A stretch of 64,000 nt of DNA from Nostoc sp. 106C. Lineage in GTDB: Bacteria; Cyanobacteriota; Cyanobacteriia; Cyanobacteriales; Nostocaceae. Below the pieces are notes generated by a model. That model did no database searches, was not told the DNA's origin, and saw only the letters and a program-made list of their open reading frames with translations. The position numbers were made by a program, and so were the translations under genes. The stretch lies in contig NZ_MTAW01000089.1 of assembly GCF_002154725.1 (NCBI RefSeq), positions 62,001 through 126,000 on the forward strand, in the 5' to 3' direction. Shown here piece by piece: positions 41,029 through 63,135 of the stretch; within the stretch, counting starts at the first letter, position 1, and every line of letters starts with the position of its first letter.

Positions 41029-41037
41029 AAATTTCAT

Positions 41038-41919
41038 CTCCTTTATTATCCAGTTAATAACTAGTACAGGTGCAAATTTTATTAAGAGAACCCGCTAGAA
41101 ATAATTTGCATTAAGAGATGGTCTAACCCTGAATTAAAAATTTTATCTCGGTACAACTATTAAACATCTATCTTCTGTCTATTATTAGTTAAAACTTATA
41201 CCTAAACCTAGTATAAATTCTAGCAACAGCACTCAATAGAGTGGGAAAGTACCGATATTTTATCTCTCTAATGCCAATTATTCCAAATTTTGAATTTAGT
41301 ATCAGGAAACTACACAAAACGCAGCATAAGTTTTTAGGGATCAATTTTTTTGGTAAGCCGTTAGAGTTTATTCTTGTCAAATTTTAACTAAGCTTAACTC
41401 TATGGTATCCTTTACATTACTTATTAAAGTCAATAAGACTTCTCACCCTAGGATTTTGGTTGTGAATTATGTAGCCTAAACAAATTATCGTTTTGTACAT
41501 TCATTTAGCAAATTCCTAAAATAGTAACTTACTATACTGAAAAACCAGTCTATTCATAGATATATGTATTCGGGGAAAAAGTTGAAAAAGTTAACATTAG
41601 ATAGAAGTAAATACCTTAGCCGATATTAATTCCAACAGCAGCAACTACGAGCAAAAAAATCGCACATTCAACGAGATTGCTACCATCTTTTTATACTTTT
41701 TTTAAAGAATAATTTATCAAGTAGGAAATTACAAAGTTTTGTAACAAGAAGATTTAAATAATAAATAATATCCAATGGGGAGAGAAAGTATTATTTGAAA
41801 TTGAGAAACTGCTTGTTAGTAATTATTTGTAATATAAAATTAAATAAAATTACACGATCGCTTCATTCATAGAGAGTATTTTTAAATTATTCATAGAGAA
41901 AAATGCCCACAAGCCCTAG
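41038..41919. other. Long AT-rich intergenic region
   Basis: Nearly 900 bp with no supported gene; a 63-codon frame at 41189-41380 has no family features. It lies after the 3' end of the large surface-protein gene block and upstream of the ComFB-like gene. Confidence 0.45.
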
Positions 41920-43221
41920 CTAAATAGGTAGAATCATCATAAACGTTGTTCCCTTGCCTGGGATTGATAAGCAATTGATTTGTCCATTATGTTTATCGAC
42001 AATAATCTGATAGCTGATAGCCAATCCTAGTCCTGTTCCTTTGCCTACAGGCTTGGTGGTGAAAGATGGCTCAAAAATACGAGCTTGCACTTCTGGAATC
42101 ATGCCAGGGCCGTTATCTTGGATGCAAATGCTGACAGTTCCTTCATGAGGCTCAATCGATGTAGTGATAGTAATAGTATTGGGGTCAGCAGCTATCTGTT
42201 GATAAGAGTGGCTGCGATCGAATTCATCAAATGCATCAATGGCATTAGCGATGATATTCATGAATACCTGGTTGAGTTGTCCAGGATAGCAAGCGATGGG
42301 GGGTAATTCAGCGTATTTTGTGATAACTTGGATTTTGGGGCGATCGCCATTACCTTTGAGTCGATGTTTCAACAGCATTAAGGTGCTATTTATTCCTTCG
42401 TGAATTTGATATTCCACCTTAGATGACATATCCGAGCGAGCAAAGGTTCTCAGCGATAAGCTGATTTCCTTCAGGCGGTCAATTCCTTGAGCCATTGATG
42501 CCAACAATTTGGGTAAATCCTCAGTCAGATACGCTAAATCGATTTCTTCAACCAGCTCTTCGATGTCCGCGTCTGGATGGGGTAATTTTTCTTGATAGAG
42601 ATGTACTAGGCGCAGCAGATTGTTGACATATTGCTCAATATGAGAGCGATTACCGCCAATAAAACCAACTGGATTATTAATCTCATGTCCGATACCTGCA
42701 ACCAGTTGTCCTAGAGTGGACATCTTTTCACTTTGGATTAGTTGGAGTTGGGTTTGTTTTAACTGTTGTAGAGATTGGCTTAATTGGGCGGTGCGTTCTT
42801 CGACCCGTTGTTCTAATGTCCGTGTGAGATGGGAAATTTTTAGGTGTAACTTTAATCGAGCAATTACTTCTTCTTGTTGAAAAGGTTTGGTAATGTAATC
42901 AACTGCACCAATTTCCAGTCCTTTTACCTTATCTGTAGCATCAGATAAAGCAGTCATAAAAATCACTGGAGTAGTTTGCGTCAGTGGATTAGCTTTCAGT
43001 CGGCGACAAGTTTCAAATCCATCCAGCCCAGGCATCATTACATCCAGGAGAATCAGATCGGGATGAGCGTATTCGGTTTGTTCGATTGCGGACTCCCCAT
43101 CTGTGGCCATTAGTGCTTTCCAACCACATCCTTGAATCGCTTCTGATAGCACTTTGAGATTGTTGGGGTTGTCATCTACCAAAAGGATGTGCATGGGCTT
43201 CAAAAGAGAATTGGTCATCAT
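41920..43221 (-). CDS. Response regulator fused to a histidine kinase
   Basis: A 433-residue soluble protein with a receiver domain first (about 10-128, phospho-acceptor Asp60 in [10 protein letters not shown]), then a coiled coil (about 132-165) and a kinase core. The core has H-box GIGHEINNP (His179), N-box [15 protein letters not shown]1 DNGPGM and GTGLGLA. This layout suits a phosphorelay partner that takes phosphate at its receiver and controls its own kinase. Its start overlaps the stop of the CHASE2 hybrid kinase gene by 4 bp (ATGA), indicating translational coupling. It is the last gene of the block. The output is unknown; no DNA-binding domain is present. Confidence 0.93.
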
Positions 43222-46013
43222 TGAGGTAACTCCGTTGTGACAAAAGATTTAAGGAATTTACGGATTTTTGCAGTTTGGAAGTTGGCAGTAAGTTTACTCA
43301 ACTCAGTTGCAAAGGGAGTTAGCTGGCTGTCTTGCTGAATTAGCTCTCCTATAATTCCCTCAATCGCCGGAATATCTCCCATCATTGCCAGATGATAGAG
43401 TTGCTGTAAAACATCGTGTGATGGTAAAGCCAATTCAGCATCTGCTTTCTGCTCAGGTTGGGAAAATGACTTCTCTGGTGTAGATTGAGCATAAATCCAC
43501 TCGACTTTGAGCAGCGATAGCTTCGCTGCTGTCTCAAAGACAGAACGCAATGCATTGAAGAGTTCATCAATTTGCAGGGGTTTGGGTACAAATGCTGTTG
43601 CTCCTGCTTGTAAACTCCGTTGACGATTTTCCTCAAATACGTTAGCGCTAGAGACAATAATCGGAATATTACGAGTTTGGGGATTTTCTTGTAAATGAAC
43701 CATGAGTTCAAAGCCATCCATATTAGGCATGGCTAGATCGAGCAAAATTACATCTGGGAGATGTTCATTGGCCAGATGTAATCCATGTTTGCTGTCGTTT
43801 GTTTCCAAGGTTCGACAGCCAATTCCTTGCAGTAAAGTAGTCAACATCGAACAGTGCTTGTCATCATCATCAACAATCAAAATTAGAGGTGTGCTACCCT
43901 GAATGCCGATGATTTTCCGATCGCTTGGGGCGATTGTCTCTGTTTGCCAGTCATGGGTTACTGGTATTGCTACTGTCAAATCCAGCCAAAACAGACTACC
44001 TTCACCTAGATGGCTCTGTACTTGAATTTGGCTTTCCATCAATGCGGCAATTCTTTGACTGATCGCTAATCCCAAGCCAGTACCTTCAGATTTTCGTCCA
44101 GCTTCACCTACTTGCTCAAAGGCCAAAAAGATTTTTTCTAGTTGGTTTGGTGACATTCCAATACCTGTATCTTCAATTTGGAAGCGAAGCTTTTGATGTG
44201 TCGTTTGTGACAACTCTCGCTCAATGACATCTACTTTAAAGGTGACGCTACCGTTGTCTGTGAATTTGATCGCGTTACCTAGTAAATTGATCAAAACTTG
44301 CCGTAGCCGCTTTTCATCTACTTGAATCACAGCTGGTAAGCAATCGCCGATCGAGACATTAAATGCAATTCCTTTTTGCTCTGCTCGAATACTGCAAATC
44401 TCGGTGACACTATGTAAAAAAGTGGGCAAATGTACATTAGTTGCAACCAATTCTAATTTACGAGCTTCAATTTTTGACAGGTCAAGAATGTCATTGATCA
44501 GCATCAGCAGATGTTTCCCACAATCGTAGATAATCCTGACTCCTTCTAGATCTTTTTTTGTCAAGTTTGGCGATGTTTCTAATAGCTGCGCAAAACCAAG
44601 GATGCCATTAAGCGGTGTACGTAACTCGTGGCTCATATTTGCTAGAAACTCGCTCTTTGCAGAGTTAGCAGCATCAGCAGCTTGCTTTGCCTCTAGCAGT
44701 TCATGAGTTCGCTCTTCAACTTTGAACTCCAGAGTTTTGGAATAATCCAATAGTTGAGCGTTGGCAATTTCCAATTGGTGATTTGTTTGTTCTAATTGCT
44801 TCTGTTTATAAGCATTTGTTGTCGCAATCACGCTGCTGATAAACGAAGCTAACGCAGGTGTGACTGGAATCAGAATGCCATACAAAAACATCCCATAGCT
44901 GCCTCCTATACACACACCGCTGATGCCTACAGTTGCCCAGAGAATTTTGCCACCTGGAATCCGCAGCCTGCTACTAGATAACAGCCAACTACCAATAGAA
45001 CCGATAAGAGACCATAAAATAATCCAGAGCGACACAGCTATGCCAGAAATGCCGTGCAGGTTTGCTTTTCCTGTTTTTGCCCCTTGCACCAATTGATGAG
45101 CAATGTTGGCATGGACAACAACCCCAGGCATAGTTTTTTGAGCTGATATCCAGGAGGAACTGAAGGGTGTGTTGAAGAAATCATTGGTACTAGCGGCGGC
45201 TGACCCAATAAACACCATGCGATCGCGCATGAGGTTGGCTGGAATTCGCCCTGCTAAGACATCACGCATAGCAACTGTGCGAAATGCCGCTTCTGAACCA
45301 TGCCAATTGAGCAGAATTTGATAGCCGCCTAAATCAGCATCGGCATAGCCTGCTTCTTGATTGCTCAGTGGGAGGTAAATTGCCTTGCCCAATTGAAACT
45401 TTTGCTGCTTGGGGTCAATACTTTCTAAGGTAATCTTTTCCGATTCCAGGTACTTGAGCGCCACAAGGGTTGCCAGCCCAGCTTTGAGCGTGCCTTGCTC
45501 TTTCGCATCAACTGCTGTCAAAAGGGCACGACGCACAAAGCGATCACCATCCAACACTAAATCTGCTAATCCGACTCGATCGAGTTTCTTCAATTCGGGT
45601 GGTGGATTGACACGCTCTCCGGTCATTTTCTCAACACCGATTAAATTGGGAGTGCTGCGAAAGATTTTGGCAAGTTCCTCATGTCCGCTTCCCTCGGGTA
45701 AATCTCGATAAAGATCCAAGCCGATGGCTCGAGGCTGCTGTGCCCGAATCTTTTCGAGTAATTTTGCTAATGCCCAATCTGGAATTGGCCATTTACGCAC
45801 CGATTGAATATCGCGTTCATCGATTGTCACAATCACGATTTCATCAGCGATCGCAGGAGATGATTGTTGACGAACCCATTCATCGCGAATTTTCCATTCA
45901 AGTAAATTGAAAAATCCCAAGGATTGACCGACAATAACTGTCAAGGCAATACTGGGAGTAATAATCAAAACGCTACGAGTGCGTTGGATGAAAGTCTGGA
46001 ATCTGCGCCACAT
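43218..46013 (-). CDS. CHASE2-domain hybrid sensor histidine kinase
   Basis: A 931-residue membrane receptor. A first helix (about 15-33) precedes an extracytoplasmic CHASE2 domain (about 45-310; [36 protein letters not shown]). Three membrane helices follow (about 320-400), then a coiled coil, HisKA with [10 protein letters not shown] (His462), and the ATP domain with [16 protein letters not shown] and GTGLGLA. A receiver (about 710-830, Asp759 in VILLDLAMP) and a helical C-terminal extension of about 90 residues complete it. CHASE2 senses extracellular signals of unknown nature. It is translationally coupled to the downstream regulator-kinase and lies behind the exoprotein, CHAT and DUF928 genes on the same strand, so it may report on that surface system. 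Confidence 0.95.
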
Positions 46014-46106
46014 ATTTGCGCTAAAAAAGATTAGGGACTGGGTGGAAGGAGGACAAGGAGGACAAGGAGAATAATTACTTGCCCATGCCCCATGCCCAAA
46101 TTGCTA
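46014..46106. repeat. Short tandem repeats between DUF928 and CHASE2 genes
   Basis: Contains GGAGGACAAGGAGGACAAGG and a second small array, TGCCCATGCCCCATGCCC. Both are typical cyanobacterial short tandem repeats; no gene. Confidence 0.6.
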
Positions 46107-47093
46107 TTAGTTTGCAGATGCTAATAACGGAGATGTGACAATCTCCTTCAAGTTAACTGAGGAGAGAAGTTCTTCCCATTGCTTGGTAATTGTCACATTG
46201 GTAGGTTGAGTGCTATGTAGGCTTGCTAGTGTTTCCACGCAGTCATACCATACGCCATTTTTACCAAAAGCCGCTGCCCGCTTTAAAGCATCTTCTTGCT
46301 GCATCACTGTTGCCAGTTCAGTAGTAGGCTGGATGCGCTGAATCCAACCATCGACATAAGGCGTACTTGGGCTGAGTTGTTCATCAACTTTGACAGCGAG
46401 GAACCAATGGTAGTTTTTTCCAACAGCTAAAGCGGGTGCATCGGTGGGTAATTTCATAGCGATTACCCCAGTTTTCCCTGCAACGGGAATGGTCATTTGA
46501 TACTGGGTATTACCAGCTTCATCTTTGAGGCTAAACACAGCTTCTTGTGCATTAGAAGCAGGAAGATATACAAGAATTGTGGGACGTTCGGATACTGTTG
46601 TGCCATAAAAGCTTTGGGGTAGGAGTGCAATTAAAGCTGCTGGGCCTGCTGCTCCTACAGTTGAAGGATTTAAGTAGTAAGTCCCAACGCGAGAAGCTCC
46701 CCCACTTGCCTGTTGAGGAGCCTCTTTTCCAGAAGCAGGTGTAAACAGGTTACCTCTGGACGCGCCTCCCGTTGCTTGCCTGGGTGTACCTTTGCCCGCA
46801 CTAGGCGTAAAGAGATTGCCTCTGGACGCGCCTCCCGTTGCTTGCCTGGGAGCTTCTTTCCCAGCGCTAGGTGTAAACAAACTACCTCTGGACGCTCCTC
46901 CTGTTGCTTGACTAGGAGCACCTTTCCCAGAAGCAGGGATAAAGAAACTGCCACGGGAAGCTCCCCCAGTCGCTTGGCTGGGAGCGCCATTATTGATTGG
47001 TGGAGTAAATGTCACAGCATGAGCACTGTTCCATGTACTGCTAGTAAGCAGAGCGATAACGCTCAAAGTACTAGCTAAATATTGACGTTTCAC
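46107..47093 (-). CDS. DUF928 exported protein with N-terminal 22-residue repeat array
   Basis: A 328-residue protein with a signal peptide (MKRQYLASTLSVIALLTSST, cleavage after about SAHA). Next come about four and a half copies of a 22-residue unit (GAPSQATGGASRG followed by a phenylalanine-rich stretch and SAGK). The C-terminal DUF928 domain contains FYGTTVSERPTILVYLP, VAGKTGVIAMKLPTD and WYDCVETLA. DUF928 proteins are cyanobacterial, extracytoplasmic and uncharacterised. The GTG at 47093 is chosen because GAGG lies 9 nt upstream and it starts the signal peptide; an ATG 15 nt earlier has no binding site. It lies between the CHAT and CHASE2 genes in one apparent transcription unit. Confidence 0.88.
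   Translation of the reverse strand: MKRQYLASTLSVIALLTSSTWNSAHAVTFTPPINNGAPSQATGGASRGSFFIPASGKGAPSQATGGASRGSLFTPSAGKEAPRQATGGASRGNLFTPSAGKGTPRQATGGASRGNLFTPASGKEAPQQASGGASRVGTYYLNPSTVGAAGPAALIALLPQSFYGTTVSERPTILVYLPASNAQEAVFSLKDEAGNTQYQMTIPVAGKTGVIAMKLPTDAPALAVGKNYHWFLAVKVDEQLSPSTPYVDGWIQRIQPTTELATVMQQEDALKRAAAFGKNGVWYDCVETLASLHSTQPTNVTITKQWEELLSSVNLKEIVTSPLLASAN
46692..46989 (-). repeat. 66-bp tandem repeat inside the DUF928 gene
   Basis: Units at 46692-46757, 46758-46823, 46824-46889 and 46890-46955 plus a partial unit encode the N-terminal 22-residue repeats. Two units (46758 and 46824) are nearly identical over much of their length, so copy number may vary between strains without breaking the frame. 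Confidence 0.85.
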
Positions 47094-47280
47094 GATCTTG
47101 CACCTCATTAAAAAACTAACAATAAATACACTTAGTCTGATTGTGGGAAGAAGCTTGTAAAATTGTTTCGGCTAACAGTCAAATGCTGAAATACCTACTA
47201 GCAATATAAACGAAATTTGGCTGGGATACCGTAAAAAATATGTGGTAAATCACTAGGCTTTTCTCAGTATGATTACGTAA

Positions 47281-49842
47281 TTAAAGCCAGTTGCCAACCA
47301 AAACAAAAGCAGACCAAAAGAAAGGATCGTGGAAATCAGTTTGGCGAATCATATTGATTTGAGCTTGCCGTAGCGCTTCGGCTTTGGTGATTTTGGGCTG
47401 TCGTAATTGGTCATAGAAGCGCGTCATTAACATTTCGGCTGCTTTATCTTTGACGGGCCAGAGAGTGGCGATGGTTGAGCGAGCGCCAGATTTGACAGCC
47501 AAGCCTGCTAGTCCTAGAACGGCGTGATCGTCCCCTGCTGCCGTATCACAGGCGCTAAGTACTAGCAACTCGATCGCTTTTGATGATTCACCACTACGAT
47601 TTTTGAGGAGTTCGGACAATTCCTTAACGTTGACTTGTCCATCCCACGTAAGTAAGAAGGTATCTTCGAGACGGGAGCTAAACTGTCCGTGGGTTGCTAG
47701 ATGGACAACATCAGCACTACTGAATTTCACGCGCTCGGCAAGGGCTTGACTGGTGAATTGCTGGTTGAGCAACATCGAAGATGGCACCGCCTTCGAGATT
47801 TGCTTGACTTCTGCTTCCACAGCAGGCAAAGCACTAAAGCCATTACGAGATTGGCTAATACCGCCGACGATCGCATCAATGTGGTTTTCCTGAAGCGATC
47901 GCGCAGTCATCAATTGCATTCCCGGTGAAAGGGCAACAGCATACTTCTCGATCAGATATTGCTTACCGTCATACAGGGCTGCTATGGGGATATTACGTAA
48001 CCGACCATCTAATACAAATACCAGTGTCTTGCTGTCTTTGAAGGCTCGATCCATTTCCGCAGGACGAATTAGCCAATCATAAATTTCTTGGGACAAGCGA
48101 TCGCGATCTTTGGAATCTGAGACAGGATTCAAGCTCACTAATAATTTATCTAGAGTTTGTTCGATGTCTGCTTGAGATTTTTGTGTTACATAGTAACGCA
48201 ACGGTTGTCCGGTTTTGGAGAGGATGACTGCCAGGCGATCGCTCAAAATAATCGGATACACGACAGTTGCATTCGGGTCAACTTGGTCAATCTGCTGCGC
48301 CCGATCTAAACAAGCTTCCCTAAAAAAGTTATCGAGTTCTGCAACTTGCAGTGCTTCAATCAAATCGCGAGCTGTCGTCAGTGCGGCTTGGCTGGGTTGT
48401 CCATCTAGAAGTAAACCTACAAGTTCGCGGTAGACAGGCTCTACACTTTCACGGAAGGAGAACTGCACATCAGGGTTGACAGCAACCAAATCCCCTCGTA
48501 GGGACTTTAAAGCTTTGACTGCTTCAGTATAGGCACTAATTGCTTGGGGGCGATCGCCTTGTTGTTTATACAACTGTCCTACTTGCCAAGCAGATTGAGC
48601 AATAATATCGTCAGCTTGGAGTTGACGCGCAATGTTAAGGGATTTCTGAGTTAATTCCTGTGCTTGTGATAACTGCTGTGTACGACGATAGAGTTTTCCC
48701 CACTGATGCAGTGCATAAGCTTCTGCTTGAGCATCTTGGATTTGTTGTGCAGACTTGACTGTGGTTGCCATCAGTTGTGCCAAGTCTTTCAGCGGTACAA
48801 TTTGGTCAGGATTTGACAGCCGATTTACACTGGCAACAAAATTAATAGCTGCGTAGAGGGAAGTGTGGCTAGGAGGCAGTTCTGTCAGTTGTTGTAGTAG
48901 TTGCGGTGCGAGTGAAGTAGCCAACTCAGGCTTGTTGTAATCGAGCAAAAGTTTGAAACGTCCTAAACTTGCTTGTAAGCGCTCGCTGGGATTTGTCGCT
49001 ACCTGTTCTGCCTGTTCAAAATAGTCTAATGCCGCCTGTGGATCTTGCAAGTCAAAGGTAGTTTTTCCTAAGTTCAGCAGGATGGAACTTAAATGAGGTG
49101 TGGTTTCGAGTTTGCGCGCGATCGCTAAACTTTGCTCTAACACTTGTTGACTTCTACCAGAATCACCGATCGTTTGCAAAGCTAAACCAAGCGATCGCAA
49201 CCCACTAACTTTCACTTCCGAATCTGGCATCGCTCCTAACTTTTGATTTAACGCCTCTAATTGCTGTTTAGAACGACGATAAAATCCCAAACTTTGTAAA
49301 GCTTGTGCAGAGTTGATTTGACTACCCAAGCTGCCCAGTTGGTCGCCTGCTTGTTCGTAATATTTTTGCGCTTGTTGCCAACTTTCCAGGGCAATTTCGG
49401 CTTTACCAGTATGCAGTTGCAAATTCCCTCGTGTATTCAGTACTTGTGCCCAAACAATTGCATCGGCAGGAGGTGCCATTGTTTGCAATAGTTTTACGCT
49501 TTGTTCAATAGATTGGCTAGCTGCTTCCCATTGATTAAGTTCTTGTTGTGCTAATGAAAGGTAACTTAAGCTGAGAGCTTCATTGGTGCGATCGCCTTGG
49601 GTATGGTAGTTTTGTACTGCCGTTTGCCAAGTTGTCACCGCTTCTGCAAAGCGTCCCGAACGGTAGAGGTTTCGTCCCTGTTCTAGCCAATTGGTAGGCT
49701 GAGTCGATGCTGATACATTCAGGATAGAAGTTGTTGGTAATGGTACAGATGCTCTAGCAGGTGTAATAGTCACTGCCAAACACAAACTTAAAATACTCAG
49801 ACTTATATATAGCCAATGGTATTTTTTAATGGGGAAGGTCAT
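47281..49842 (-). CDS. TPR-CHAT caspase-like protein with signal peptide
   Basis: An 853-residue protein. It begins with a signal peptide (about 1-32; YISLSILSLCLAVTITPARA), then a long tetratricopeptide array (about 50-445). The C-terminal CHAT domain (about 520-853) is of the caspase-HetF-associated clan CD fold. The catalytic dyad is visible as His718 in VVHLATHGQF and Cys765 in VLSACDTAAG, with GLAGLAVKSGARSTIATLWP and the C-terminal FHDPFFWSAFVLVGNW typical of CHAT. CHAT proteases act in regulated proteolysis, for example in the gRAMP/Craspase system, but this one is probably exported. It lies directly downstream of the four exoprotein genes and could process or monitor them; that is inference. 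Confidence 0.93.
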   Translation of the reverse strand: MTFPIKKYHWLYISLSILSLCLAVTITPARASVPLPTTSILNVSASTQPTNWLEQGRNLYRSGRFAEAVTTWQTAVQNYHTQGDRTNEALSLSYLSLAQQELNQWEAASQSIEQSVKLLQTMAPPADAIVWAQVLNTRGNLQLHTGKAEIALESWQQAQKYYEQAGDQLGSLGSQINSAQALQSLGFYRRSKQQLEALNQKLGAMPDSEVKVSGLRSLGLALQTIGDSGRSQQVLEQSLAIARKLETTPHLSSILLNLGKTTFDLQDPQAALDYFEQAEQVATNPSERLQASLGRFKLLLDYNKPELATSLAPQLLQQLTELPPSHTSLYAAINFVASVNRLSNPDQIVPLKDLAQLMATTVKSAQQIQDAQAEAYALHQWGKLYRRTQQLSQAQELTQKSLNIARQLQADDIIAQSAWQVGQLYKQQGDRPQAISAYTEAVKALKSLRGDLVAVNPDVQFSFRESVEPVYRELVGLLLDGQPSQAALTTARDLIEALQVAELDNFFREACLDRAQQIDQVDPNATVVYPIILSDRLAVILSKTGQPLRYYVTQKSQADIEQTLDKLLVSLNPVSDSKDRDRLSQEIYDWLIRPAEMDRAFKDSKTLVFVLDGRLRNIPIAALYDGKQYLIEKYAVALSPGMQLMTARSLQENHIDAIVGGISQSRNGFSALPAVEAEVKQISKAVPSSMLLNQQFTSQALAERVKFSSADVVHLATHGQFSSRLEDTFLLTWDGQVNVKELSELLKNRSGESSKAIELLVLSACDTAAGDDHAVLGLAGLAVKSGARSTIATLWPVKDKAAEMLMTRFYDQLRQPKITKAEALRQAQINMIRQTDFHDPFFWSAFVLVGNWL

Positions 49843-49948
49843 AGATATTTACTGATAGTGTAAGAGTTTGTTTAGTAAAGTAATTGTGTAGCGGCGAAGT
49901 GGGTTTTTATGAAGAAATTGCCTGTTAAGTTTGTCTTTTTCAAGAAAA

Positions 49949-52588: not shown

Positions 52589-52697
52589 TACTTGGTCTCC
52601 TTTTATACCAATTTAATATTCCCTATATGTTATTGTTTCTAACACCAGTGACAAAGGTATTGTTTGAGCACTGGGAGTAATTGCAATCGTTTGGCAT

Positions 52698-55205
52698 TTA
52701 GATATTTGAATTTTTGGGCAAATTGTCTTTTGGAAGCGCAGCACAAGTTAACTGCGGCTGTAAATGTGTAGGAGATTGCGCTGCAATTAACTCAACTTTG
52801 CCTTGGGTGTTGCGATACCAGGAGGTTGCTTGAACAAGAACCTCTGGTGATGTAGGCATTTGCGCAGTAACATTGCTAGTTTTGCGGTATGCAGAAATGT
52901 CGCGGGTATCAGACCAAGCGCGATCGCTCCCTATTTCTCGTGTCGGATTTTGCGGCACACCACCTCGTCCTGTCGCCACGAAAGTACTACCAGTATTGGC
53001 AGAACAACCTGTAGCTATTTGTTGGGATGGATCGGTGACATTTGCAGGTAATTCGACTAAACCAGAATTGGGATCGATACCGATGTTATTAACTTGAACA
53101 GTACCATTGATATTAAATTCGGAACTAGCTGTGATGTCGTTGGTAAGGTCTTCTCTCGGAGTCAGGGTATTGCGGAAATTCAGACCAATAATACCTTGAG
53201 TGGTAATGGCAATATTGCCACCTTTTCCTTGCACAGCATTAGCAATGATATCACTATTTTCTAAACCAGTAATAATTGGTGCATTAATGTTAATGTTCCC
53301 TCCTTTACCATTACCGCCTGCGGTCGAGGTAATTTGGCTATTATTCCGCAGCAGCAACAAATTCCCCACCTGTAAATCGATATTGCCACCATGACCGGAT
53401 TCTGTCCTGGCCTCGATGAAAGCTTGATTTTTTAATTGGATACTATTTGCATTAATTTTGAGACTGCCACTATCACCAGTGCCTTGATTGGTAACGGTAA
53501 CAGTTCCTTGGTTCTTCAGGATGAGGTTTGGTGTCGTAATGTTAACCGTACCAGAATCAGCAGTCAGTTTATATTCTGATAGCCCAAATAACTTCTGCAA
53601 AACTGGGTTGAGAATCAGGGCAGAGGAGCTAATAGCACTTGGTGTTAATGGATTATAACCATTAACTTCAACAAATTCTGTAGCATCGATCTTCACATCC
53701 CCAGCGTGACCGATTAAGTATGAACTAGTGCCGATCGCACCACCATCTATAACTTTTAACCTGGCGGTATCTAGGGTTAAAGTTTTAGCATTGCCAACGT
53801 TGAAAGTGACTGAGGCAATTCTTGTGCCAAAAGGAGAGCTATTACTACTCTGCACGGTGGTATCTAGGTTGCGAACCACAATTTCACCGCTTGAACCAAC
53901 ACCCCGCGATACGGAAGACAGTCCGCCACCATAGGATACGAGTAAACTATCACCTTGGACAAGAATATTACCTGCATTTCCAGAACCAAAGGTACTGGTG
54001 TTAATAAAACTGCCACTGGCATTAAGGGGCGATAACCCAGATATTTCTACGTTTTTGGCATTAACCTGAATATTCCCACTGTCAGACGCCCCATAAGTGT
54101 TACTACTTAATATTCCTCCTTCATAGAGATTGAGTTTAGGGGTAATAACAGTGATACTGCTCCCAGTTCCCTGGCTCCAGGTTTCACTCCGAACCCCGCT
54201 GGCTGCACCAGTCAGATTGATGCTTTCGGTTGCCTGAAGATGCAAGTTGCCACCAGGAAGATTACCGTAATTTTGCGCCAGTAACAGTGAGCCATCGGTA
54301 AATTGAATCTGCTTACCTTGCACCTGCACAGAACCAGCATTGACTCCACTGACATCTAGTAGGGATTTTTGGGTAACTTGAATATCTCCAAAGCTGTGTA
54401 CGTTCCCGTACCCCAGCGTATACCCTTGAGCCGTTGATATCAGGTCAACAGATTCTGAGCTACCCAAACTACCCAACTCAATATGACCAGTTTCAGCTGT
54501 CAGAGTGGCTCCATTTAGATTCAGATTACCACCCACCAACGCCAGAGTTTTTCCAGGTTCTACTTTCAGTTGTGTCAGACTAGGAGTACGGATAATTGGA
54601 GATAAGATATTAGCAATATTTAAGCTGTATCCCGTACTTTGAACGGCGATCGCTCCTGGATTTTGTCCCATTTGTAAGCCAACAGGCACACTCATCGTCA
54701 ATACAGGGGGTGTTGTCGTGTCGGTAGCATTAAACTTGAAACCATCGCTGAAATTAATACTATTCGCTGTTGTTCCCACAAACGAGCCGCCAATATCCAA
54801 TTTGGCATTTTGTCCAAATATAATCCCCGCAGGATTCATCAAAAACAAACTCACAGGATTATTCGCGTTGAGAGTTTGAATCAACCCATCAATATTGGAA
54901 ACATTTCTACCACTTACCCGACTGAATATAGTTTTAATATTTGGTGTGTTAACTAAATCAAATGTTGCTGAACCACCTGTCGGGACAGAAAATTTACTGA
55001 AGCTATGAAATAAATTACTGCCTGCGGTACTACCATTGGTGATCGTGAAGTGATTGCTATTTGGGGAGACAATAGTATTGAGGCTACCATCAGAGGTAAC
55101 TTGAGCATGGGCATAGCCGTGCCAAAGCAAAATGATTCCTAATGGCAGTATATAACCTACATAAATTCGATTCATCAATCCAAAATAAATAGGATATAAT
55201 TTCAT
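52698..55205 (-). CDS. Two-partner-secretion exoprotein (TpsA-type), type B, third of four
   Basis: An 835-residue exported protein with signal peptide (ending WHGYAHAQ) and a TPS secretion domain. The latter includes GSLNTIVSPNSNHFTITNG and the motif LFLMNPAGIIFGQNAKLDIG, with the NPAGI form closer to canonical NPNGI. A GNI-type beta helix with an inserted segment EPGKTLALVGGNLNLNGATL follows. The C-terminus has the shared tail (ATGC, VATGRGG, LTCAALP). Its N-terminal half resembles the 57897 gene more than its direct neighbours. A stretch near its 3' end is almost identical in DNA to the corresponding part of the 55323 gene. Confidence 0.93.
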   Translation of the reverse strand: MKLYPIYFGLMNRIYVGYILPLGIILLWHGYAHAQVTSDGSLNTIVSPNSNHFTITNGSTAGSNLFHSFSKFSVPTGGSATFDLVNTPNIKTIFSRVSGRNVSNIDGLIQTLNANNPVSLFLMNPAGIIFGQNAKLDIGGSFVGTTANSINFSDGFKFNATDTTTPPVLTMSVPVGLQMGQNPGAIAVQSTGYSLNIANILSPIIRTPSLTQLKVEPGKTLALVGGNLNLNGATLTAETGHIELGSLGSSESVDLISTAQGYTLGYGNVHSFGDIQVTQKSLLDVSGVNAGSVQVQGKQIQFTDGSLLLAQNYGNLPGGNLHLQATESINLTGAASGVRSETWSQGTGSSITVITPKLNLYEGGILSSNTYGASDSGNIQVNAKNVEISGLSPLNASGSFINTSTFGSGNAGNILVQGDSLLVSYGGGLSSVSRGVGSSGEIVVRNLDTTVQSSNSSPFGTRIASVTFNVGNAKTLTLDTARLKVIDGGAIGTSSYLIGHAGDVKIDATEFVEVNGYNPLTPSAISSSALILNPVLQKLFGLSEYKLTADSGTVNITTPNLILKNQGTVTVTNQGTGDSGSLKINANSIQLKNQAFIEARTESGHGGNIDLQVGNLLLLRNNSQITSTAGGNGKGGNININAPIITGLENSDIIANAVQGKGGNIAITTQGIIGLNFRNTLTPREDLTNDITASSEFNINGTVQVNNIGIDPNSGLVELPANVTDPSQQIATGCSANTGSTFVATGRGGVPQNPTREIGSDRAWSDTRDISAYRKTSNVTAQMPTSPEVLVQATSWYRNTQGKVELIAAQSPTHLQPQLTCAALPKDNLPKNSNI

Positions 55206-55322
55206 TTTTAGTAGATTTTTATATTGATTTTTGTAGTTAATTTAGTGTTCCCATAATCGTATTGTTGCTAACATTAACCAGCGACAAGGAAGGTATGAGA
55301 AATTTTTGAATTTTTCACAAAA

Positions 55323-57812
55323 TTAACTCTGAGGAATCGCAGCACAGGTTAATGCTTGCTGAGTATGGGTAGAAGATTGTGCTGCAACTAACTCAACTTT
55401 TCCGTTAGCATTACGATGCCAAGAAGTGGCTTGGACAAGTTCTGGTGATGAAGGGATTTGAGTTTGTAAAGCTTGTGTTTTGCGGAATGCAGAGATATCG
55501 CGGATATCAGACCAAGTGCGATCGCTCCCTACTTCTCGTGTCGGATTTTGCGGCACACCACCTCGTCCTGTCGCCACGAAAGTACTACCAGTATTGGCAG
55601 AACAACCTGTAGCTATTTGTTGGGATGGATCGGTGACATTTACTGGTAATTCAACTAAACCCGAATTGGGATCGATACCAATATTATTAATTTCCACTGT
55701 CCCATTGACATTAAATGCGGAACTAGCTGTAATATCATTGGTCAAATCTGCTCTAGGAGTTAGAGTATTGCGGTATCCTAGACCGATAATACCTTGAGTA
55801 GTGATGTTAATATTACCACCACGACCTTGAACCGCATTGGCGATCATGTCGCTGTTTTCTAAACCTACAATCACAGGGGAGGTAATTGACAAGTTACCAC
55901 CATTACCTGTGCCCGCAGATGTAGCAGAAATAACGCTATCGTGACGCATCAACAGATAATCTTGTAAGTTTAATCTGACATTTCCCCCGTTACCAGAGGC
56001 GGTGGATGCAGTGATGTTGCCTTGTTGGTCTAGAACAATTGAGTTAGCATTTATCTGTAAATCTCCAGCTTTACCAGTTCCATCATTTTTGACGCTCACC
56101 GCTCCTCCATCGATCAGGTGTAACAATGGTGTGTTGATTATTAAAGAACCTGAATTGCCAGTAGGTATCGGAGGGAGTTGAAAGATAGCTTGAGTAACAG
56201 CATCAGTCATCTCGGCGTTGGAAAAAATGCGAGCGGGTAATTCAGTGACACTACCTTCGGTAAAACTATCTGCAATATCGATGGATTCAGAAGCGTTGAC
56301 TACCACGCTACCAGCCGAACCACTTGCTACAGTCGTAGAACCTAAAGACCCCCCCTTTTGGATTGTTAATCGAGCAGTATTGATAACTGCGCTATTTGCA
56401 TTACCCGATCCCTGAGTGAAGGTAGCGAGACTACTGCCAGGATCTGTAATTTCCACTATATCGGTGGCATTTACTTGGATTGCTCCACTCTGTCCAGAAC
56501 TGACAGCGACAGAAATAATATTACCGTTATCGAGAAGCTTGAGATCCCCAGTGGATACCGTGATGTTCCCTGCATTACCACTATTTAATGAAAATGTGAC
56601 GATCGCAGTATAAATAGCTGGATTGGCGCGATTAAAGCCACCGATCTCGGTTCTACCGCCCACATTGGTGACAATGTTTGCACCTGCTGTTTGACTCCGA
56701 GTTCTAGTCACAATTCTTCCGCCATCTTGCAGGAAGAGGTTGGTGGCCGAGATTGCTATATCTCCTACCTGACCTGTACCAAAATTGTTACTTTGGATCA
56801 AACTTCCTAATTGACCGTTGGCTGTATTTCCTGTCAGACTTAGGGAACCTGTGGCATTAGCTGTAATTCCTCCAGAGGATTGTGTTCCCAGGTTTTGGAG
56901 CAAAGCAGCAGAACCCTCAGTCAAACTAATGTTTTGTCCTTGTAAGAGGATTGAGCCATTGCTACCAGTGGCATTCAGCAGCGATTGTTGCGCCAGATCA
57001 ATATCATTAAATTGTTGCACGTTGGAATAATCACCAATCCAGCCTGTTGGAGTGGGTTTAAGTCCAACTTGTCCATTCTTGACACTGCCCACTTCTAGAT
57101 GCCCACTGTCCTTGGTGGAAGCAACTCCACCGGAAAAGTTCACTCCAGCGCCAATCAAAGCTAGTGTTTGATTTGTTCCAGCTTGTAATCCGGGGGGGCT
57201 TTTGCTGGCATTAGCTTGACCAAAGCCAGTACTATCTGTCAACAGGTTTCCCCGTCCCCGCACGGTAATGGTTCCTGAGTTTTGACCCATCTGCAAGCCG
57301 ATAGGTACACTCATAGTTAGTAAAGGAGTACTATTAGCATTTACTGCACTAAACTCTGCACCATCGCTAAATTTAATACTATTTGCTGTCGTTCCTAGAA
57401 ATGAACCACCTATATTTAAACTGGCATTTTCTCCAAAAATAATCCCAGCTGAGTTAAGCAAAAACAGGTTGGCAGTACCATTCGCACGAATCAAACCATC
57501 AATATTAGATGTACTACCGCCAGTGACTCGCGCAAAGATATTCTCAATGGTGGTGGCGTTGTCGAACAAGGCAGAGCCTCCGGTAGGTACGGAGAATTGG
57601 CTGAAGCTGTGAAACAGATTATTGCCTGTGACAGTGCCATTAGTAATCGTGAAGTTATTGCCATTCTGGAAGACAGTAGTATTGAGGCTGCCATCTGAAG
57701 CTATCTGAGCATTTGCGTAGCTGTTGCCAAAGAACATGATTCCGATTGGTAGCAGTATAGAACCTGCCCATATTCGATTCATCAAACTCAAATAAACAGA
57801 AAACAGCCTCAT
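55323..57812 (-). CDS. Two-partner-secretion exoprotein (TpsA-type), type A, second of four
   Basis: An 829-residue exported protein. The signal peptide and TPS domain (MRLFSVYLSLMNRIWAGSIL; LFLLNSAGIIFGENASLNIG) match those of the 49949 gene almost residue for residue. The central beta helix has its own sequence, including ATNLFLQDGGRIVTRTRS and NGSILLQGQNISLTEGSAAL. The C-terminus carries the shared cysteine tail. The 65 bp upstream of its ATG, including TATAAAAGGAGAC, resemble those upstream of 49949-52588. It would be exported through the TpsB encoded upstream. Confidence 0.93.
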   Translation of the reverse strand: MRLFSVYLSLMNRIWAGSILLPIGIMFFGNSYANAQIASDGSLNTTVFQNGNNFTITNGTVTGNNLFHSFSQFSVPTGGSALFDNATTIENIFARVTGGSTSNIDGLIRANGTANLFLLNSAGIIFGENASLNIGGSFLGTTANSIKFSDGAEFSAVNANSTPLLTMSVPIGLQMGQNSGTITVRGRGNLLTDSTGFGQANASKSPPGLQAGTNQTLALIGAGVNFSGGVASTKDSGHLEVGSVKNGQVGLKPTPTGWIGDYSNVQQFNDIDLAQQSLLNATGSNGSILLQGQNISLTEGSAALLQNLGTQSSGGITANATGSLSLTGNTANGQLGSLIQSNNFGTGQVGDIAISATNLFLQDGGRIVTRTRSQTAGANIVTNVGGRTEIGGFNRANPAIYTAIVTFSLNSGNAGNITVSTGDLKLLDNGNIISVAVSSGQSGAIQVNATDIVEITDPGSSLATFTQGSGNANSAVINTARLTIQKGGSLGSTTVASGSAGSVVVNASESIDIADSFTEGSVTELPARIFSNAEMTDAVTQAIFQLPPIPTGNSGSLIINTPLLHLIDGGAVSVKNDGTGKAGDLQINANSIVLDQQGNITASTASGNGGNVRLNLQDYLLMRHDSVISATSAGTGNGGNLSITSPVIVGLENSDMIANAVQGRGGNINITTQGIIGLGYRNTLTPRADLTNDITASSAFNVNGTVEINNIGIDPNSGLVELPVNVTDPSQQIATGCSANTGSTFVATGRGGVPQNPTREVGSDRTWSDIRDISAFRKTQALQTQIPSSPELVQATSWHRNANGKVELVAAQSSTHTQQALTCAAIPQS

Positions 57813-57896
57813 TATTAGTCTCCTTTTATACCTAATTACTATTCCTTAAATGTTATTGTTCCTAACATGAGTGGGGAACTGTTTGAGCGCTGGAAG

Positions 57897-60419
57897 TCAT
57901 GGCGCTTGCTTGACATTCAAAATATTTGAATTGCTGGACAAATCAACTCTTGGAACCGCAGCACAAGTTAACGGCGGCTGGATATGTGCGGGAGATTGTG
58001 CCGTAACTAATTCAACTTTGCCTTGGGCGTTACGATACCAGGAAGTAGCTTCCACAATGACATCTGGCAATGTAGGTGTTTTGGCAGTTACATTACTAGT
58101 TTGGCGATATGCAGAGATGTCGCGGGTATCAGACCAGGTGCGATCGCTCTTCACTTCTTGTGTGGGATTTTGCGGCATACCACCCCGTCCCGTAGCCACA
58201 AATTTACTGCCTTGCTTGCTGGCACAATCTGTAGCAATTTGCTGGGATGGATCGCTGACATTTGCAGGTAATTCTACTAAGCCAGAATTGGGATCTACGC
58301 CGATGTTATTAATTTCAACTGTGCCACTAATACCAAATTGGGAACTAGCGGTGATGTCATTTTCTGGGGTGAGTTCGGGACGAAACTGCAATCCAATTAT
58401 TCCCTGAGTGGTGATTTGAATATTGCCACCCTTACCTTGAAAGGCATTAGCAATAATGTCGCTGTTTCCCACTCCAGCAACGATTGGTGCATTGATATTG
58501 ATATTACCGCCATTACCATTACCGCCTGCGGTGGCTGCGATCGCGCTATTGCTACGCAGCAGCAACAACTTCCCAACATCTAAAGCGATATTCCCGCCAT
58601 TACCCGATTCTGTTGCTGCTTGGATGCTGGCTTGACGCTCTAATCGAATGGTATGAGCTGTAATGTTGAGACTGCCACCATTGCCGCTACCTTGACTAGT
58701 AACACTCACTGTTCCGCCATCCATTAACATCAGGTTGGGTGTAGTAATGCTCACATTACCCGCATTGGCTGTTAGTATGTTTGGCAAACCAAATAGCTGC
58801 TGGAGTTGTGGGTTTAAGCTAAGGACAGATGAGTTGATGCTGCTGTAATTGCTTTGACTACGACCACTAATCTCGATTGATTCCGTGGCATTAATACTAA
58901 TATCTCCACCATTACCTGTGAAGAAGGTAGTTGCAGCAACTGCCCCTCCATTGAGAATTTGTAACTTGGCGGTATCCAGCGACAATTTTTTAGCGTTTCC
59001 GGTTGCAAACGTGGTTGAGGCAATGTTGCTATAGAAGCCAAAGGGACTTTCTCCCATTACAGTCGTGTGATTGTTGCGAATTGTCACTTTTCCACTAGAG
59101 CCACTACCAAATGTAGCTGAACCTAATGAAGCTCCACCTGATACTACTAAACTATTGCCATTGACAAAGATGTCGCCAGCGTTACCCGAACTATAATAGC
59201 TAGAAGTACCAAGAGTACTAATGTCTCTAGGATTGCTTGGTGAAAATCCAGACAGTTCAATAGCAGTTGCCTGAATTTCGATATTGCCACTTGCAGCCGT
59301 TCCTATAGTTGAACTATTCAACCCTGCTCCCTCTTGGATTGTCAGCTTGGGAGTAATGACACTGATATTACCGCCTGCTGCGCTGCCGAAAGTTTCACTG
59401 CGAATTCCACTCCAAATTCCTGCATCGGTTCTACCAATCATGTCTATCGCTGCTGATGCTTGCAAGTGAATTTCACCACCGGGTAAATAACCGAAATTCT
59501 GCGTCAGTATGAGTGAACCATCAGTAAATTTAATGTTTTGCCCCTGAATCTGTACAGATCCTGCATTAATGCCACTTACATCAACTAGCGATCGCTGTGC
59601 TAGTTGAATATCGCCAAAGCTTTGCCCATTTTCATAACCCAAGGTATAGCCTTGTACTGTGGGTATGAGGCTGACCAATCCTACACCACTCACGCTGCCT
59701 AATTCTACTTGCCCCTGTTGAGCAGTTAGAGTTGCCCCATTCAGATCCAAATTGCCCCCTACCAAAGCTAGAGTTTGTCCTGGCTGTACCCGTAGTTCGC
59801 TAGCACTAGGAACCACACTGATCGGCGGCAATCCATTGGGATTGGGATTGCTCAAGGAGTGTCCTGTGCCTTGGACAGCGATCGCCGCCGGATTGCTGCC
59901 CATTTGCAAACCAATGGGAACATTAATGCTTAAAAGGGGCTGAGTTTGGGAATTAATCGCACTAAACTCTGCACCATCAGCAAACTTAATGCTATTTGCA
60001 GTTGTACCAACAAACGATCCACCAATATTCAGTTGAGCATTAGGGCCAAAGATGATGCCACTGGGATTGATCAAAAATAGGCTCACAGGATTATTACTGT
60101 TGATGGTTTGAATCATGCCATCAATGTGAGAAATGCTACCACCTGTAACCCGACCGAATATGGTAGTTATGTTTGGTGAGTTAACTAAATCAAAGATGGC
60201 TGAAGTACTAGTAGGAACGCTAAATTGCTGGAAACTGTGAAATAAATTACTGTTGGCAACACTGCCGTTATTGATGATAAAATTGCTACCACTTTGGGAA
60301 ACATTTGTATTAAGAGTGCCATCAGATGTAACCTGGGCGTTGGCAAAGCCACACCAGAGAAATATGCTACCTGTCAAAATTCCATTAACCAAATCCCAGC
60401 AAACAGAGGGCGCTTTCAT
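57897..60419 (-). CDS. Two-partner-secretion exoprotein (TpsA-type), type B, first of four
   Basis: An 840-residue exported protein and the first TpsA after the transporter gene, 39 bp downstream of it. It has a shorter signal peptide (ending WCGFANAQ), a TPS domain with LFLINPSGIIFGPNAQLNIG (NPSGI), an inserted region with QPGQTLALVGGNLDLNGATL as in the 52698 gene, and a GNI/GDI-rich beta helix. The shared tail reads ATDC, VATGRGG and LTCAAVP, followed by a longer C-terminus. The very short gap to tpsB suggests co-translation and that this may be the original partner of the transporter. Confidence 0.94.
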   Translation of the reverse strand: MKAPSVCWDLVNGILTGSIFLWCGFANAQVTSDGTLNTNVSQSGSNFIINNGSVANSNLFHSFQQFSVPTSTSAIFDLVNSPNITTIFGRVTGGSISHIDGMIQTINSNNPVSLFLINPSGIIFGPNAQLNIGGSFVGTTANSIKFADGAEFSAINSQTQPLLSINVPIGLQMGSNPAAIAVQGTGHSLSNPNPNGLPPISVVPSASELRVQPGQTLALVGGNLDLNGATLTAQQGQVELGSVSGVGLVSLIPTVQGYTLGYENGQSFGDIQLAQRSLVDVSGINAGSVQIQGQNIKFTDGSLILTQNFGYLPGGEIHLQASAAIDMIGRTDAGIWSGIRSETFGSAAGGNISVITPKLTIQEGAGLNSSTIGTAASGNIEIQATAIELSGFSPSNPRDISTLGTSSYYSSGNAGDIFVNGNSLVVSGGASLGSATFGSGSSGKVTIRNNHTTVMGESPFGFYSNIASTTFATGNAKKLSLDTAKLQILNGGAVAATTFFTGNGGDISINATESIEISGRSQSNYSSINSSVLSLNPQLQQLFGLPNILTANAGNVSITTPNLMLMDGGTVSVTSQGSGNGGSLNITAHTIRLERQASIQAATESGNGGNIALDVGKLLLLRSNSAIAATAGGNGNGGNININAPIVAGVGNSDIIANAFQGKGGNIQITTQGIIGLQFRPELTPENDITASSQFGISGTVEINNIGVDPNSGLVELPANVSDPSQQIATDCASKQGSKFVATGRGGMPQNPTQEVKSDRTWSDTRDISAYRQTSNVTAKTPTLPDVIVEATSWYRNAQGKVELVTAQSPAHIQPPLTCAAVPRVDLSSNSNILNVKQAP

Positions 60420-60458
60420 CTCTCGGTTTCCAACAATACTTATATAAATAGAGTTCCC

Positions 60459-62228
60459 TCAAAACGGCGAATACTGCACTGAGAAATACACTCCATTTTC
60501 TTGAAGCGATCGCTTTTCACCCTCTACTGATGTCAGCGGAATACCCCAATCCAAACGAGCTGAGAAGTTATTGCCCTGTTTCCATAGCAGCCCTAATCCC
60601 GTACCTACTAACGTACTTGGTGAGGGATTGTCGCCTTTGGTATTCCAACCTTTACCAACATCGATAAAGGGTGTCAGTTGCAGCACCCCTCCTAGCTTGG
60701 GCGCACGTAAAATTGGCAAGCGAAACTCTGCCGAAAACAACATGCCATTGTCTGTGAGTAATGTGTCTTGACGATAGCCTCGTACACTTACTTGTCCGCC
60801 CAGACCGAATTGTTCTAAAGGAACTAGAGAATCTGCTGCTAGTTGTAAATCGCCTCTAGCTAAAAACAAAGTATCTGGTGCTAACTGTCGCACCCACTGC
60901 GCCTGTCCCCGCCAGGCGAAAAAGCGGCTATCCGGGCCATCATCACTCACATTGGCATCGAACCAATCTACACCCAAGCTAAATTGCGATCGCACAGCAA
61001 ACACGTGCTGATTGCTGCGCTGGGTATACTCCTGAAAGAAGCGGAGGGCAGAAATATTGGTTCTTCCTTGGGCATCTGCACCAGGCGAAAGTCGAAACGG
61101 GCCAATGTTATCAATGCCCAACTCTGTTTGGCTTTCTTGGCGCGAGAACGATAATCCGACAGCTAAATCCTGAGTAGGTTTTTGCAGCAATGGTTGGCGA
61201 TAGCCAAATTCGTAAGATGTGGTATTTGATTGAATATCCAAGACGCTGAATGGTTCTTCAATCACGTTGTTCCAACCCTGGTTAAAACCAAACCAGAGAG
61301 TGCCGTTGTGAGGATTAATTGGTAGTGCGTAATTGAGATTGATTGTATTACTGCCATCGGTATTGGCGTATCCGACGCTCAGGGTGTCACCTAAACCAAG
61401 TAAATTGGCTTGTTGGAGATCTATTCCCCGACGGAAACTGCCAACACTGGGCGATCGCCCATTATCGAGGGTAGCTGTGAGTGAAAATGTGTCGGCTTCT
61501 TGAACCTCGACTTGCAATATATTGGTTCCCGGACTTACACCCATCTGCAATTCAGCTGATAGATTTTGAATCCGCGGATCGAGGCGCAGTAGTTGTAACT
61601 TTTCCATTAAGCGCGGGATATTTAAAGGTTTTCCCGCACCAAGTAGAATGCGATCGCGAATGTATTGACTGCGCAATCGTCTGTTACCAGTGATTTTGAT
61701 TTCTTGCAGACTACCCTCGATTACCTGAATTTTGATTGTTCCGGCTTCTACTGTCTGCGGTGTAATCAATGCCCCTGTAGTGACATAACCGTTATCAATG
61801 TAAAGCTTGGCGATCGCATCTTTGATTTGCAGTAATTCTGCAAATGTCAGTTCTCTGCCAACGAAGGGATTGGTAATTGCAGCAAACTGTTGTGGTTTGA
61901 AGACTGTACTGCCAACAACTTCAATGCGATCGACTCGAAATTTGGCATTAGAGTCATCCTGTCCTGGAATTGATGGTTCTGGTAGTGTTGGTGGCGGAAG
62001 CAATTGATTGTTTTCTGGTGGCTTCGGTAATACATCCGCAGGTAAGGGAGTAGCAGGAACCTCTTCTATCCGTCCAGGCGGTAAGGTTTGAGGATTTGGA
62101 GTTTGGGCGAGTGCTTCCTGATACTGGCCTAGTACTGCTGCTAAAACAAAGCCGAATGTCAGAGGTTTCAGCTTAAAGCGAAATTTGAGAGGCCTATTCA
62201 ATGTTGGCTTAGAGCCGACGGTAGTCAT
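60459..62228 (-). CDS. ShlB/FhaC/HecB-family outer-membrane transporter (TpsB)
   Basis: A 589-residue outer-membrane protein that would export the four TpsA proteins encoded downstream. It has a signal peptide (about 1-41, ending EALAQ) and a proline-rich linker (about 45-90). Two POTRA-type domains follow (FRVDRIEVVGSTVF onward, and IKIQVIEGSLQEIKITGNRR). The 16-stranded beta barrel contains the conserved VRGYR motif of the translocation loop and ends in the terminal aromatic residue (VQYSPF) used for barrel assembly. It is the first gene of the block. AAAGGA lies 7 nt before the ATG at 62228. Confidence 0.95.
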   Translation of the reverse strand: MTTVGSKPTLNRPLKFRFKLKPLTFGFVLAAVLGQYQEALAQTPNPQTLPPGRIEEVPATPLPADVLPKPPENNQLLPPPTLPEPSIPGQDDSNAKFRVDRIEVVGSTVFKPQQFAAITNPFVGRELTFAELLQIKDAIAKLYIDNGYVTTGALITPQTVEAGTIKIQVIEGSLQEIKITGNRRLRSQYIRDRILLGAGKPLNIPRLMEKLQLLRLDPRIQNLSAELQMGVSPGTNILQVEVQEADTFSLTATLDNGRSPSVGSFRRGIDLQQANLLGLGDTLSVGYANTDGSNTINLNYALPINPHNGTLWFGFNQGWNNVIEEPFSVLDIQSNTTSYEFGYRQPLLQKPTQDLAVGLSFSRQESQTELGIDNIGPFRLSPGADAQGRTNISALRFFQEYTQRSNQHVFAVRSQFSLGVDWFDANVSDDGPDSRFFAWRGQAQWVRQLAPDTLFLARGDLQLAADSLVPLEQFGLGGQVSVRGYRQDTLLTDNGMLFSAEFRLPILRAPKLGGVLQLTPFIDVGKGWNTKGDNPSPSTLVGTGLGLLWKQGNNFSARLDWGIPLTSVEGEKRSLQENGVYFSVQYSPF

Positions 62229-62620: not shown

Positions 62621-62695
62621 ATATCAGTTTGAACAAGAATGCGACAAATACATGAGGTAGGGGCGCACAGCTAGCTGTGCGCCCTTAAATGGTAT
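62621..62695. repeat. 75-bp dispersed repeat element (family copy 3) with perfect palindrome
   Basis: It begins ATATCAGTTTGAACAAGAAT, continues GCGACAAATAC, and ends TGGTAT. Inside is a perfect 24-nt palindrome at 62661-62684 (GGGCGCACAGCT with AGCTGTGCGCCC). The start matches the minus strand of the 14782-14882 element (ATACCAATTTGAAAAAAGAA, then TGCGACAGAT and GTAGGGGC). Confidence 0.65.
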
Positions 62696-63091: not shown

Positions 63092-63135
63092 GTAGAATAG
63101 GGTACAGAAAGCAGCACGGAAGGGAGGAAGGGAAA

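Follow-up and report, generated by a model that had tools for sequence, protein, structure and literature searches.

Does a run of nine genes that joins an outer-membrane transporter, four exoproteins, a caspase-like protein and two kinases on one strand form a single surface machine, or are its parts neighbours for other reasons? The run lies in a 64-kb window (the whole stretch of DNA analysed, positions 62001–126000 of contig NZ_MTAW01000089.1) of the 8.66 Mb draft genome of Nostoc sp. 106C (G000, the home genome). A sequence-only reading had placed nine same-strand genes at 41920–62228 of the window, encoding the two-partner secretion (TPS) transporter TpsB, four TpsA exoproteins, CHAT and DUF928 proteins, a CHASE2 kinase and a regulator-kinase, and had described them as a self-contained unit with its own sensor. 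The gene content was confirmed: nine open reading frames, all on the minus strand, lie exactly within these bounds, and the defining Pfam family of each of the nine proteins scored above its curated cut-off. TpsB matched PF03865, PF08479 and PF01103 above cut-off, and all four TpsA proteins carry the N-terminal TPS domain, PF05860. From TpsB to the REC kinase, the intergenic gaps calculated from the reading frame coordinates are 39, 84, 117, 109, 106, 172 and 93 bp, followed by a 4-bp overlap; the overlap and the lower bound of the range given earlier (39–190 bp) were correct, and the upper bound is 172 bp. We found the neighbourhood to be real and conserved, and by its content it is a variant of two-partner secretion with a plausible mechanism. 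Its features are as follows (window coordinates).

60459..62228, minus strand: TpsB outer-membrane transporter, POTRA_2 and ShlB barrel, 589 amino acids (Pfam; orthologues 67–88% identical in four genomes)
57897..60419, minus strand: TpsA1, 840 amino acids, TPS domain at residues 28–290 (Pfam)
58179..58190, minus strand: GRGG of the TpsA1 tail (Cys codons 58224–58226 and 57963–57965)
55323..57812, minus strand: TpsA2, 829 amino acids (Pfam)
55557..55568, minus strand: GRGG of the TpsA2 tail (Cys codons 55602–55604 and 55344–55346)
52698..55205, minus strand: TpsA3, 835 amino acids (Pfam)
52959..52970, minus strand: GRGG of the TpsA3 tail (Cys codons 53004–53006 and 52743–52745)
49949..52588, minus strand: TpsA4, 879 amino acids, a confidently modelled strand-rich part followed by the tail (Pfam, structure model)
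49952..50308, minus strand: conserved C-terminal tail of TpsA4 (Cys codons 50231–50233 and 49970–49972 bracket GRGG at 50186–50197)
47281..49842, minus strand: TPR-CHAT protein, signal-peptide-like N-terminus, 853 amino acids (Pfam PF12770, reading frame)
47689..47691, minus strand: CHAT His718 of HLATHG, putative catalytic His
47548..47550, minus strand: CHAT Cys765 of LVLSAC, putative catalytic Cys
46107..47108, minus strand: DUF928 protein, signal-peptide-like N-terminus, 333 amino acids (Pfam, reading frame)
46704..46997, minus strand: GGASRG-type repeats of DUF928, the modelled part predicted to be disordered (sequence, structure model)
46125..46703, minus strand: DUF928 domain, predicted Ig-like sandwich and helical part (Pfam, structure model, fold match)
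43218..46013, minus strand: CHASE2-HisKA-HATPase-REC hybrid kinase, 931 amino acids (Pfam)
41920..43221, minus strand: REC-HATPase response-regulator kinase, 433 amino acids (Pfam; 4-bp overlap with the CHASE2 kinase gene)

A near-fixed core and a variable TpsA array

Chance grouping of the neighbourhood was rejected by rotation tests, in which the positions of one gene family were rotated 1000 times against those of another on 7 chromosomes, six of the seven genomes belonging to one family. The tests left aside the draft home genome, genome G023, hits off contig C1, CHAT hits below 75 bits and partial TpsB hits, and were confined to the DUF928 and CHAT matches listed. DUF928 genes lay within 12.5 kb of CHASE2 in 32 of 40 cases (rotated mean 1.65), of CHAT in 23 of 40 (4.17) and of TPS in 18 of 40 (2.11), and TpsB lay within the same distance of CHAT in 22 of 34 (3.48); none of the 1000 rotations reached any of these counts.

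Four other genomes carry an orthologous locus, in which CHAT is 74–84%, DUF928 63–76% and the CHASE2 kinase 71–81% identical to its counterpart in the window, in addition to the TpsB range given above. The TPS matches at these loci number 12 in G007, 11 in G001, 8 in G005 (one in a broken gene) and 5 in G015, with 4 in the window. A wider scan with CHAT orthologues returned 65 loci, by record title nearly all from Nostocales, with exceptions that include Pantanalinema, Alkalinema and Lyngbya. At the 60 loci with a full CHAT gene, counting those with enough downstream sequence, CHAT was followed by DUF928 in 54 of 54, by the CHASE2 kinase in 52 of 53 and by the REC kinase in 48 of 50, and a 4-bp overlap was the commonest spacing between the two kinase genes among 51 loci. 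The sequence-only reading had staked its proposal on conservation in related genomes, and conservation survived the rotation tests, the four orthologous loci and the 60-locus synteny alike.

TpsA or a TpsA tail was present in 41 of the 49 core loci with at least 9 kb of upstream sequence, and was upstream on the same strand in 38. In the 11 scan loci with a full TpsB in the upstream stretch examined, TpsB and CHAT are separated by one or two TPS genes, and G007 has 12, so that the TpsA array ranges from 1 to 12. The near-fixed core is thus CHAT, DUF928, the CHASE2 kinase and the REC kinase, and the number of adjoining TpsA genes varies. In L072, L073, L074, L114, L119 and G015 (L072 and L119 are probably the same genomes as G001 and G007), the run is broken up by kinase genes on the opposite, minus strand, and therefore one transcript of all nine genes cannot be the rule. 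Of the self-contained nine-gene unit, then, the four-gene core stands; the variable array, these interruptions and the loci with neither TpsA nor TpsB described below do not fit it.

Related arrangements occur elsewhere. Among five annotated plasmids, taken from 16 plasmid records found, a Pseudanabaena sp. ABRG5-3 plasmid carried TpsB-CHASE2-TpsA-CHAT-DUF928 on one strand; three Nostoc plasmids held at least three of the families and a fourth Nostoc plasmid CHASE2 and DUF928 only. On a contig from another family (G035), TPS, TpsB (broken into two frames) and CHAT are followed by DUF928 and CHASE2, these last two being encoded on the other strand. Across 145 Cyanobacteriia, TPS was found in 110, CHAT in 129 and the tail model described below in 78, and TPS in none of the 16 CHAT-less genomes. 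The genomes with TPS are therefore a subset of those with CHAT in this sample, an observation to which we give little weight, as the CHAT-less genomes are small and come from few families.

Several variants of the arrangement were seen in passing. In two plasmid copies (L065 and L066), DUF1822 genes, together with a sigma-70 gene in L065, adjoin CHASE2 and may represent an alternative output. In Tolypothrix brevis (L125), a 547-amino-acid frame with CHAT and then kinase and receiver matches occupies the place of the core, as if a deletion had joined its first and third genes. In the G005 array (L034, L035) two TpsA genes are fragmented; one of the two is split around a minus-strand frame of 455 amino acids whose start also begins a 268-amino-acid frame upstream of TpsB, in the manner of a mobile element. 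A protein of ~820 amino acids with the sequence LTELARHEDI lies between TpsA genes in the arrays of both G007 (L032 region) and G001 (L036).

Within the 64-kb window, Rfam (gathering threshold) and tRNA scans gave no match, and an NCBIfam scan of the nine proteins added no specific system. In promoter and terminator scans of 41000–52000 and 52400–63600, terminator-like sites were at most slightly more numerous than in shuffles (15 versus 9.8 and 13 versus 9.0).

The TpsA tail and the CHAT fusions

What might connect TpsA to CHAT is the C-terminal tail of TpsA. In the last ~119 residues, two cysteines 85–100 residues apart bracket GRGG, usually in the form F-V/I-x-TGRGG-x-P. Among 39 array TpsA proteins longer than 700 amino acids from five genomes, 38 had the two cysteines, 38 had GRGG, 37 had both and 35 had TGRGG; the corresponding scan proteins (n = 69, two of them identical to members of the array set) had two cysteines in 69, GRGG in 67 and TGRGG in 63. 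All 13 complete TpsA proteins of the home genome that belong neither to the array nor to a fusion had the two cysteines, and 12 had GRGG as well. No further cysteine occurs between signal peptide and tail in 37 of the 39 array proteins.

The tail is also the most conserved segment of TpsA, with a mean entropy of 0.95 versus 1.33 for the signal and TPS region and 1.44–2.06 for the middle. It appears to be homogenised within genomes: its best match was a paralogue of the same genome in 25 of 39 proteins, versus 7–14 of 39 for the other segments, and at the DNA level TpsA2 and TpsA3 share a block of 300 nt, 90% identical, close to their 3' ends. In an AlphaFold2 model of the C-terminal 330 residues of TpsA4, residues 1–205 formed repeated strands with confidence, and residues 211–330 were almost wholly below 50 in predicted local distance difference test (pLDDT) score. 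Foldseek gave no match to this model at E 0.001. Because the tail is conserved yet lacks a confidently predicted fold, it suits a role in recognition or anchoring.

The CHAT family consists of caspase-like peptidases with a catalytic His and Cys. Both motifs, which contain the putatively catalytic His718 and Cys765 in the window protein, were present in 60 of 60 CHAT orthologues. A sequence search of the PDB with the CHAT protein matched TPR stretches only.

The main reason for believing in a joint function is a set of fusions. Eight open frames join TPS to CHAT, with CHAT at the extreme C-terminus and without the two-Cys GRGG tail; hmmscan found both domains in L054, L061, L062, L142 and L144, and genome searches placed them in the same frame in L139, L140 and L141. 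A TpsB gene is present in the examined stretch for 6 of the 8, and GRGG occurs inside the fusion body of L141 (position 823) and L144 (position 664). Two further candidates were kept outside the eight: L060 (3935 amino acids), where TPS was found by genome search and not by hmmscan, and L143, which has genome-search coordinates only. Because the fusions end in CHAT and have no such tail, CHAT stands in the tail's place. Two of the frames, L054:4737-10169 and L142:4339-9993, run from a family 2 glycosyltransferase through a signal-like hydrophobic stretch to TPS and CHAT, and the frame of L140 extends about as far at its N-terminus; these may be true fusions, or translation may begin internally, downstream of another gene in the same frame.

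DUF928 and the CHASE2 receptors

The structure model of DUF928 (pLDDT 77, with blocks 51–210 mostly above 85) shows a sandwich of seven strands and then four helices. Its best PDB match by Foldseek was MtxA (4z29; E 7.2e-06, template-modelling score 0.43–0.54). MtxA is described as having an Ig-like and a TPR part and a predicted signal peptide; mtxA directly precedes a CHASE2-adenylate cyclase gene in magnetotactic bacteria, and its deletion gave no phenotype under standard conditions. The predicted Ig-plus-helical fold of DUF928 may thus resemble that of MtxA, and the genes of both lie beside those of CHASE2 receptors, although no sequence similarity is detectable and the receptor output is a kinase here and a cyclase there. 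Because the fold search used no gene context, the agreement on a CHASE2 neighbour is independent of it. We infer that DUF928 is probably a periplasmic partner of CHASE2 receptors.

Two further frames join CHASE2 to other N-terminal parts without a kinase match: a CHAT-like part beside DUF928 (L047:4547-6880) and an AAA_35 part near DUF928 (L050:6397-8724). The literature gives one precedent for the pairing of CHASE2 with DUF928. A CHASE2-DUF928-WD40 cluster of N. punctiforme, one of seven species covered, is described in PMC5587647, which also mentions, by citation, that a DUF928 protein of Synechocystis responds to acid; the word CHAT is absent from that text, in which no search for TPS was made. 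Among open-licence papers, we found none that pairs two-partner secretion and cyanobacteria with the CHAT domain, or CHASE2 with the CHAT domain, and none that links the CHAT domain with filamentous hemagglutinin in Nostoc or with hemagglutinin in cyanobacteria.

A proposed surface-adhesin module and its rivals

Taken together, the TpsA tail, the TPS-CHAT fusions and the fold match of DUF928 to MtxA, whose gene also adjoins a CHASE2 gene, support a joint function. We tentatively favour, at somewhat less than even confidence, a reading in which the locus is an instance of a surface-adhesin module found in cyanobacteria. TpsB would export the putative TpsA beta-helices, and each TpsA would be held at the outer membrane by its probably unstructured tail, closed by a Cys-Cys disulfide (a cysteine hook). 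The exported CHAT protein, as a caspase-like cysteine protease, would act on the tail, most likely at or near GRGG, and so release or mature the adhesin. DUF928, as a periplasmic Ig-plus-TPR protein, would be the partner of the CHASE2 receptor; the pair would report envelope or adhesin status to both kinases, with output through the REC kinase. A sensor and proteolytic maturation had been suggested before, and the tail motif, the TPS-CHAT fusions and the CHAT-CHASE2 fusion lend weight to both ideas.

This reading has counterparts in known systems. In the CdrA-CdrB-LapG system of Pseudomonas aeruginosa, the C-terminus of a TpsA adhesin is held in TpsB by a cysteine hook and a periplasmic protease releases it. 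Release is known there and only predicted here; in the Nostoc locus the protease would be CHAT, there are often several TpsA per TpsB, and a CHASE2 kinase pair takes the place of cyclic di-GMP control. The LapG family (PF06035) matched in none of 9 genomes, and in Caulobacter among 14 control genomes. A C-terminal disulfide anchor also locks TpsA in the TpsB pore in HMW1 and HxuA of Haemophilus; here the tail has ~119 residues with GRGG, and CHAT, DUF928 and CHASE2 genes adjoin. A stronger version, in which CHAT replaces LapG and cuts the tail at GRGG in an adhesin-release machine controlled by CHASE2 and DUF928, and in which the DUF928/MtxA-CHASE2 design is common across phyla, we consider unlikely.

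Several observations weigh against the module. Within 12.5 kb, DUF928 with TpsB (1 of 40) and CHASE2 with TpsB (3 of 77) were not above chance. Neither TpsA nor TpsB was found in the stretch examined at 8 of the 49 core loci with at least 9 kb upstream. Of five further TPS loci, L137 carries the complete set, L136 has TpsB at the contig edge, and L134, L135 and L138 have no partner family in the stretch, save for one match to a kinase in L138; these loci lend no support to a TPS-CHAT link. TpsA genes with the same tail lie on home contigs C62, C48 and C232 without CHAT within the 9–12 kb around them, so that the tail is not peculiar to linked genes. The TpsA of G136 (L133) keeps two cysteines without GRGG and has no CHAT within 19.6 kb; that genome carries one TPS gene and one CHAT, and the members of its family in the sample have no TPS. 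The cysteine spacing in the tail is presumably longer than in HMW1. Both CHAT motifs were matched in 5 of the 8 fusions, the pattern missing the His or the Cys motif in three. The likeness of DUF928 to MtxA, as noted, is one of fold only. Export of CHAT and DUF928 seems probable from a crude signal-peptide test, passed by 58 of 60 CHAT, 57 of 59 DUF928, 55 of 69 TpsA and 11 of 15 TpsB proteins, which 19 of 60 cytoplasmic controls also passed.

The strongest competitor, which we regard as doubtful and yet to be taken seriously, holds that the core alone is a periplasmic stress-sensing and protease unit, that TpsA and TpsB are frequent neighbours through common regulation of surface genes, and that CHAT cuts another target, such as the DUF928 repeats or a cell-death target. 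It would explain why the core is nearly invariant and TpsA is not. Within 5 kb, DUF928 lay near CHASE2 in 31 of 40 cases versus 3 of 40 for TPS, and the latter count was not above chance (62 of 1000 rotations reached it). DUF928 orthologues carry 0–7 GGASR repeats as possible substrates, and a metacaspase fused to CHASE2 is described in Trichodesmium (PMC2853523). What such a unit does not account for is the direct tie between CHAT and TPS export in the fusions, together with the proximity of CHAT to TpsB in 22 of 34 cases. Moreover, all 10 genomes whose locus first scored empty with the TPS-domain model encode a tail-bearing TpsA, two of them with tails in the examined stretch.

It is improbable, in our view, that the cysteine tail anchors TpsA while any release falls to another protease, with CHAT acting at the surface as an enzyme brought there by, or along with, the TPS machinery. 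The fusions do put CHAT on a TPS protein, and anchoring, as described for the known systems, needs no cleavage; however, the window CHAT begins with a signal-peptide-like stretch of its own and does not match TPS, and the search for another release protease, which covered the LapG family, gave the negative result above.

CHAT and caspase-like proteins occur in anti-phage and programmed-death systems. Such a role for this locus is very improbable: besides the CHAT domain itself it can claim weak PADLOC matches to TPR, BovA, SduA and two further models, none better than E 1.2e-06 among the seven of nine proteins scanned, and the signal-peptide-like CHAT and the TPS context speak against it. Contact-dependent inhibition or kin recognition, with the tandem TpsA as variable effectors, was dropped as scarcely credible, since for all their 1–12 copies and divergent middles the TpsA proteins have VENN or (Q/E)LYN in 0 of 39 array members, their C-termini are the most conserved part, the reverse of such toxins, and no reading frame of at least 100 amino acids lies in the gaps between the window TpsA genes.

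If the surface-adhesin module is correct, DUF928 and exported CHAT proteins would have their first assigned role. Both families are numerous in these genomes (the home genome has 10 DUF928 and 45 CHAT matches, beside 20 TPS and 16 CHASE2) and little covered among the open-licence papers, one of which mentions DUF928. A caspase-fold enzyme would then control adhesion rather than death, and CHASE2 receptors would gain a testable partner. Even if CHAT does not cleave the tail, a locus with as many as 12 TpsA genes to one TpsB offers a natural case for the study of TpsB specificity and adhesin diversification.

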